Below, piece after piece: positions 33,074 through 34,788 of a stretch of 64,000 bases of DNA; position 1 is the stretch's first letter, and every line of letters begins with the position of its first letter. A program made the position numbers and the translations under genes. Below the pieces are notes generated by a model. It ran no database searches and was not told the DNA's origin. It saw only the letters and a list, made by a program, of their open reading frames with translations. The DNA comes from Yinghuangia soli (GTDB lineage: Bacteria > Actinomycetota > Actinomycetes > Streptomycetales > Streptomycetaceae), in the NCBI RefSeq assembly GCF_021502675.1, contig NZ_JAKFHA010000004.1, positions 1 to 64,000 of the forward strand. The letters run 5' to 3'.

Positions 33074-34687
33074 ATGTCCGAGAACCTGGAAGAGTCCCCC
33101 GCACCACCCGGCCCCGCGGCCGGCGACGACGTCACCGGACGCCTCGAAGGCGCCTCCAAGGCCCGCGTGTTCAGCGTCCTCGCGGTGATCGTGCTGTTCT
33201 CCGAGGTCGTGCCGCTGCAGTACTCGATGGTGTCCACCGCGGTCCAGAAAGTCGGCATGGACTTCCCGTCGGCCGGCGACAACATCAGCTGGATGATCAT
33301 CATCCTGGGCCTGGTGGGCGGCGCCACCACGCCCATCCTGGGCAAACTCGCCGACCTGGTGGGCAAGAAGCTCGTGCTGTTCGGCTGCAGCATCGCCTTC
33401 CTGGCCGGCTCGCTGCTGTGCGCGCTCACCGAGAGCTGGGCGATGTTCCTGGTCGGCCGCGGCCTGCAGGCCGTCGCGTTCGCGATGGCGGCCATCGCGG
33501 CCGGCCTGATCCGCGACCTGATGCCGCGCAAGTACGTGCCGCTGTCCATCGGCGTCATCGCCACCGGCTTCGGCGTCTCCGCGCTGGTCTCGCCGTTCCT
33601 CACCGGCTGGCTGACCGACCACTGGAGCTGGCGCTCGATCTTCTGGTTCCTGACGATCTACATCCTGGTGCTGATCCCGGTCTTCTGGATCGTGGTGCCG
33701 GAGACCAAGCTCAAGGTCAGCCAGAAGCTCGACTGGCTCGGGTCGGTCCTGGTCGGCGCGGGCGCCGCGCTCGCCCTGGTCTACATCTCCAACGGCCAGC
33801 AGTGGGGCTGGGGGCGCTTCTCCGCGTACATCTACCTCATCGGCGGCATCGCCCTGCTGATCGCGTTCTACCTGTGGGAACTCCGCGCCCCCGAACCGAT
33901 CATGGACCCGAAGCTGCTGCGCACCCCGCGCGTCTCGATCGTCCTGGCGGTCGGCCTCTTCGCCAACATGATCATCGGCGTGCAGGCCTACGCGATCGCC
34001 TACATGGCCCAGATCGACAAAGAGTTCGTGGACGGCAATGTCATCGCCGGATTCGCCGAGAAGTCCGGCTTCCCCGCCGAAATGCTGAGCCAAGTCCTCG
34101 TCTTCGACGGCGACTTGAGCTACGCCCTCGGGTTCACCCTGATGGCGCTCGCGCTGCACATCACGGCCTGGCAGGCCATCCCGGGCATGTTCACCGGCCC
34201 GGCGGCCGGCGAATGGGGCAAGCGCACCGGACTGCGGCAGCCGTACCTGGCCTCGATGGTCATCATGACGCTCACCATGGTCATGTACGCGCTGTGGCAC
34301 GGCAGCTGGGTGCAGTTGCTGCTGATCAGCATCCTGTTCGGCATCGCCTTCGGCATGTACTACGGCGCCGCCAACAACCTCATCGTCGAGGCCGTGCCGC
34401 AGGAGCAGCAGGGCATCGGGGCCAGCATGCTGGGCCTGACCCAGTCGTTCGGCAGCGCGGTGGGCACCGCCATCCTCACCGCGATCGTGTCCGCCCACCC
34501 GTACCAGGTGATCACCCCGGACGCGCCCGGCAACCCGTCGCAGACCATCGACATCCCGCAGGTCTACACCGACGAGGGCTGGACGCTGGTCTTCTGGGCG
34601 ATGGCCGCGGCCGGCCTGGTGTGCGTGGTCCTGGTGTACGTCATGCGCGCCGGGCGCACCCCGGCGACCGGCGGCACCCTGCACTGA
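33074..34687 (+). CDS. DHA2-family MFS exporter (EmrB/QacA-like)
   Basis: A 537-residue drug:proton antiporter with about 14 helices. GGATTPILGKLADLVGKKLVLFG is the motif A loop after helix 2, GRGLQAVAFAMAAIAAGLIRDLMP is motif B, and GFGVSALVSPFLTGWLTDHWSWRSIFW is motif C of DHA2 proteins. Members export antibiotics and other amphipathic compounds. An unusually long loop (about residues 310-350; DKEFVDGNVIAGFAEKSG) lies in the second half. ATG 33074 follows GGGAG. Possible operators lie at 32979-33006, yet no regulator gene is adjacent. A G15/C23 hairpin follows the stop codon. Confidence 0.92.
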   Translation: MSENLEESPAPPGPAAGDDVTGRLEGASKARVFSVLAVIVLFSEVVPLQYSMVSTAVQKVGMDFPSAGDNISWMIIILGLVGGATTPILGKLADLVGKKLVLFGCSIAFLAGSLLCALTESWAMFLVGRGLQAVAFAMAAIAAGLIRDLMPRKYVPLSIGVIATGFGVSALVSPFLTGWLTDHWSWRSIFWFLTIYILVLIPVFWIVVPETKLKVSQKLDWLGSVLVGAGAALALVYISNGQQWGWGRFSAYIYLIGGIALLIAFYLWELRAPEPIMDPKLLRTPRVSIVLAVGLFANMIIGVQAYAIAYMAQIDKEFVDGNVIAGFAEKSGFPAEMLSQVLVFDGDLSYALGFTLMALALHITAWQAIPGMFTGPAAGEWGKRTGLRQPYLASMVIMTLTMVMYALWHGSWVQLLLISILFGIAFGMYYGAANNLIVEAVPQEQQGIGASMLGLTQSFGSAVGTAILTAIVSAHPYQVITPDAPGNPSQTIDIPQVYTDEGWTLVFWAMAAAGLVCVVLVYVMRAGRTPATGGTLH

Positions 34688-34690
34688 ACC

Positions 34691-34735
34691 GGCGGGGGGG
34701 GGGGGGGGCCCGCCCCCCCCCCCCCCCCCCCCCCC
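34691..34735. terminator. G15-CCCG-C23 homopolymer hairpin
   Basis: After GGC comes a run of 15 G (34694-34708), then CCCG (34709-34712), then 23 C (34713-34735). The runs can pair to give a stem of 15 or more G:C pairs. It begins four bases past the DHA2 stop codon and lies before the convergent HAD gene stop, where a bidirectional terminator would be expected. Homopolymers of this length are prone to sequencing and assembly error, so the exact lengths are uncertain. Confidence 0.6.
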
Positions 34736-34788
34736 GACTCCGCTCACCCGCCGGCCCGTTCGCGGGTGCGGCGCGGCGTATGCCCCGC

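Follow-up and report, generated by a model that had tools for sequence, protein, structure and literature searches.

The 64-kb window, by which we mean the whole stretch of DNA analysed, exhibits a block of long G and C runs between two convergent genes, an MFS transporter gene and a HAD-family hydrolase gene. The gap separating these genes is 101 bp long (34688-34788), and the block is near both stop codons. Up to position 34754 the window reads CACTGAACCGGC-G15-CCCG-C23-GACTCCGCTCACCCGCCGG (Table 1). An earlier note on this DNA had reported these letters and their convergent setting, and both are found in the assembly exactly as claimed, its start at 34691 taking in the GGC ahead of G15. It had also called the runs exceptional even in GC-rich DNA, and rightly so: the second-longest G or C run within the window is 6, and a first-order Markov model trained on the remaining letters of the window predicts only 3e-4 G runs of at least 15 and 2e-7 C runs of at least 23. 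The block is therefore not a product of chance composition. This confirms the assembly text, but the evidence given below says that the underlying DNA does not read G15/C23.

Table 1. Positions of the genes, the block and the possible terminator remains in the window.
Feature	Position	Strand	Remarks
MFS transporter gene	33074-34687	+	ORF and Pfam PF07690 (E-value 1.9e-41); ends 6 bp ahead of the G run
CCGGCGGG	34689-34696	+	Possible surviving left-arm base of the true terminator; extends into the G run by three letters
G15 run	34694-34708	none	Left half of the artefact block; sequence, and class shown artefactual
CCCG	34709-34712	none	Separates G15 from C23; sequence
C23 run	34713-34735	none	Right half of the artefact block; sequence, and same class evidence
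GACTCCGCTCACCCGCCGG	34736-34754	+	Candidate remnant of the true terminator's right arm, as suggested by the sequence
HAD-family hydrolase gene	34789 to about 35418	-	ORF and Pfam PF13419/PF12710; convergent with the MFS gene

Folding of the block and possible remains of a terminator

If the runs were real, they would form an extreme homopolymer stem lengthened by replication slippage, serving both genes and capable of adopting a G-quadruplex or i-motif. Two observations agree with this: the block follows shortly after a stop codon between convergent genes, a fitting position for a terminator, and a very stable hairpin is predicted for the RNA (-50 to -59 kcal/mol). However, this fold is no better than those of shuffled sequences (z only -1.0 and -1.4), because the same composition alone folds. 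A scan of the 64-kb window against Rfam gave no match, a terminator scan gave no terminator-like site at the block, and the T run of a U-tract terminator is found on neither side of it.

The site is similar to an ordinary convergent actinobacterial terminator in its 101-bp gap, in its place just past the stop codon, and in the hairpins present at matched gene ends of relatives. It differs in that the stems observed in the finished genomes compared are of mixed sequence with G/C runs of at most 5, and G15/C23 is found at no matched end. Some flanking letters may be remains of such a mixed stem. CCGGCGGG pairs with positions 34747-34754, only 5 bp of this pairing lying outside the run, while the inner part of GACTCCGCTCACCCGCCGG is left with no partner on the left side. 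A nested-stem truncation CCGGCGGG..CCCGCCGG, reaching 5 bp beyond the run, is suggestive only. Since GACTCCGCTCACCCGCCGG extends inward past its left partner, the missing left arm is predicted to be complementary to it; the true left arm may mirror this right flank. The object beneath the block is probably an ordinary mixed-sequence bidirectional terminator.

Similar blocks across the draft genome

The assembly containing the window is a 9.7-Mb draft of 91 contigs, with 216 G/C runs of at least 12 (99 of G and 117 of C). We surveyed it by searches and sampled stretches; reading 60 stretches around long G/C runs yielded 59 blocks. With 3.7% A+T, these blocks contrast with the window's 27.5%. 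In 24 of the 59, a scaffold gap of exactly 10 N is located in the block or at most 150 bp away from it, and five of the six such gaps in a systematic 464-kb sample adjoin G/C runs of at least 8. Classified by their outermost long runs, left then right, 31 blocks are G..C, 15 are C..C, 9 are G..G and 4 are C..G; the bias for G on the left and C on the right (31 versus 4 reversed) is shared by the block of the window. Slippage predicts neither this order, nor the lack of A and T, nor the adjacency to N gaps, which argues against real runs. The blocks are found preferentially at gene ends: a crude codon-phase caller assigned strands confidently at 31 sites, of which 16 lie between convergent genes, 14 between tandem genes and one between divergent genes.

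The flanks of the blocks carry exact repeats of at least 12 nt far more frequently than when flanks are shuffled among sites, both direct (10% versus 0.1%) and inverted (8% versus 0.2%). The longest inverted flank, of 20 nt at L064, resembles the outer portion of a hairpin with a replaced interior. The longest direct one, an exact repeat of 61 nt at L098:1471-1653 (draft contig C12, near 286.1 kb), surrounds a G17CG14C17-type block, as though the same contig end had been written twice around junk. Similar duplications of 17-26 nt are present at L062, L067, L069 and L096. Collapsing the duplications at these five loci to restore reading frames revealed no clear interrupted gene. The G15/C23 block of the window has itself neither an N gap nor a flanking duplication.

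An artefact of another kind could also be considered, in which the assembler or a gap filler over-lengthened a natural, shorter G/C-rich stem without any dark-base calling. The frequent contact of the blocks with scaffold gaps and the flanking duplications of some of them, such as the 61-nt repeat, are in its favour, but by itself it explains neither the G/C-only filler nor the G-first/C-last order. As the matched places in finished relatives are also free of long G or C runs (see below), we regard this origin as very unlikely.

Matched places and assembly type in relatives

Several blocks of the draft could be matched with gene ends of a single-contig congener (G002). In place of the L082 block (G28, N10 and more runs), the congener has a perfect 17-bp stem of mixed sequence (-47.4 kcal/mol, z -7.3); in place of the L114 block (G20..C20), the outer stem is perfect over 14 bp, with a fold of -54.9 kcal/mol (z -7.3). 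An inverted-repeat region is likewise present at the gene end corresponding to L097, whereas L079, L087 and L089 correspond to ends with no perfect 8-bp stem and no run longer than 5. When L224:1352-1555 (G002) is compared with L087:1120-1620 (draft), the congener exhibits a very short gap and no hairpin between the orthologous convergent genes; accordingly, a conserved terminator need not lie beneath each G/C block.

For the site of the window, the MFS side could be compared on a complete Embleya replicon. The MFS homologue there (81% DNA identity) is directly followed by a hairpin of the ordinary kind (-38.2 kcal/mol, z -4.5), in a region with no G/C run longer than 5; at the window's site, such a hairpin is either hidden or absent. 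The HAD gene has a 78% match in the draft congener G001, a record named Yinghuangia seranimata, in which its neighbours are different, and no match in G002; no two-sided orthologue of the MFS/HAD junction was found in the genus. Ordinary sequence thus occupies the matched places in good assemblies, for other blocks as well as for the MFS side of the site.

We also sampled 392 Streptomycetales genomes for the pattern G15-N(0-20)-C15, dividing them at 10 contigs (contig counts are rounded, except for the window's genome). The pattern is present in 34 of the 246 assemblies with more than 10 contigs, against 2 of the 146 with at most 10 contigs (Fisher p=7.5e-6). Its reverse, C15..G15, is rarer, with 11 and 0 assemblies, respectively. 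Within genera, the presence of G15..C15 switches with assembly type, which is evidence against real runs. In the genus of the window, overlapping matches number in the hundreds in each of the two drafts, and there are none in the single-contig genome. The signature tracks fragmented assemblies, not phylogeny. Most fragmented drafts also lack it, and we infer that it depends on the instrument or the processing, not on fragmentation alone. The drafts G001, G035, G046 and G354 resemble the window's genome in that their overlapping G(n)..C(n) matches also run into the hundreds, with none in members of the same genera; these four drafts probably need the same masking.

It might be supposed that a few actinobacterial lineages truly use long G/C stems as convergent terminators, and that near-finished assemblies lose them through consensus calling. 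We give this extremely little credence. Shortening of homopolymers in long reads was rejected as the cause of the absence, because even G7..C7 stems are nearly absent from near-finished genomes: the single-contig congener has none, and 15 other genomes of at most 8 contigs have 0 or 1 each. This near-absence also tells against real runs in the window, since it leaves little natural seed for slippage to lengthen.

Among single-contig genomes there are two exceptions, both of Streptomyces (G254 and G139), each with one block of the form GGAA-G(21-24)-C(17-18)-TTCC. One is of G21/C18 type and the other of G24/C17 type (L221:1501-1540 in G254, L222:1501-1541 in G139); they lie at unrelated gene ends, in genomes otherwise devoid of such runs. 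These blocks, which may be either leftovers of hybrid assembly or real, lend some support to real runs, but the relatives at the G254 locus exhibit ordinary hairpins. In eleven relatives, the stretches compared contain no G/C run longer than 6 anywhere, and most readable ones have a mixed hairpin, for example GAAGGGGCGTATCC...GGATACGCCCCTTG. The edge of the G254 block therefore resembles a normal terminator, the inside of which has been replaced. Taking all these observations into account, we find it extremely improbable that the runs of the window are real.

Proposed origin and significance

We conclude with high confidence that G15/C23 is a sequencing-and-assembly artefact, which replaces an ordinary strong terminator hairpin between the convergent genes. 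For this particular site, the verdict rests on its membership in a clearly artefactual class and on the Embleya comparison. The G15/C23 sequence as written is almost certainly not a real biological feature, and we infer that its G and C runs are absent from the DNA of the cell. The earlier note had itself raised an artefact as one possibility, and this is now strongly supported by the genome-wide, cross-genome and orthologue comparisons; its other suggestions, an extreme terminator stem, a G-quadruplex or a slippage hotspot, find no support at a site where an ordinary mixed-sequence terminator probably stands.

The following origin may be proposed. Signal would be lost as short reads run into the hairpin, whichever side they come from, and on a two-colour Illumina instrument, presumably the chemistry used for the window's genome, absent signal would be called G. 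Reads arriving from the left would then finish as polyG; so would those from the right, which would appear as polyC on the forward strand. An assembler welding the two junk tails together would produce 5'-G(n)...C(n)-3'. Some blocks start with C or finish with G, so the two-tail model in this simple form does not account for everything.

The proposal has parallels in known sequencing errors. On MiniSeq, NextSeq and NovaSeq instruments guanine corresponds to the absence of signal, and signal dropout is reported to cause overcalling of G and polyG stretches (PMC8002175). The filler at the site is similarly G from the left and C, the G of the other strand, from the right. In contrast, such overcalling has been described for reads, whereas here the junk is inside contigs as G(n)..C(n). 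Illumina miscalls have also been linked to inverted repeats (backfolding) and to the motifs CGGCGGG and GGCGGGT (PMC3622629). In a comparable manner, the G run of the site begins immediately after CCGGCGGG, within a possible inverted repeat; the errors in that study, however, were base miscalls of four-colour chemistry, not whole lost stems. In the literature searched, we found no paper on exactly such an assembly artefact in Streptomyces.

As written, the block carries no biological weight, and its value is that of a data-quality warning. G(n)..C(n) blocks are present in 36 of the 392 sampled Streptomycetales assemblies, and surveys of motifs, G-quadruplexes, slippage or terminators on draft actinobacterial genomes should mask them. 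Many of these blocks probably hide real terminators, and a G-then-C block may point to places of strong hairpins.
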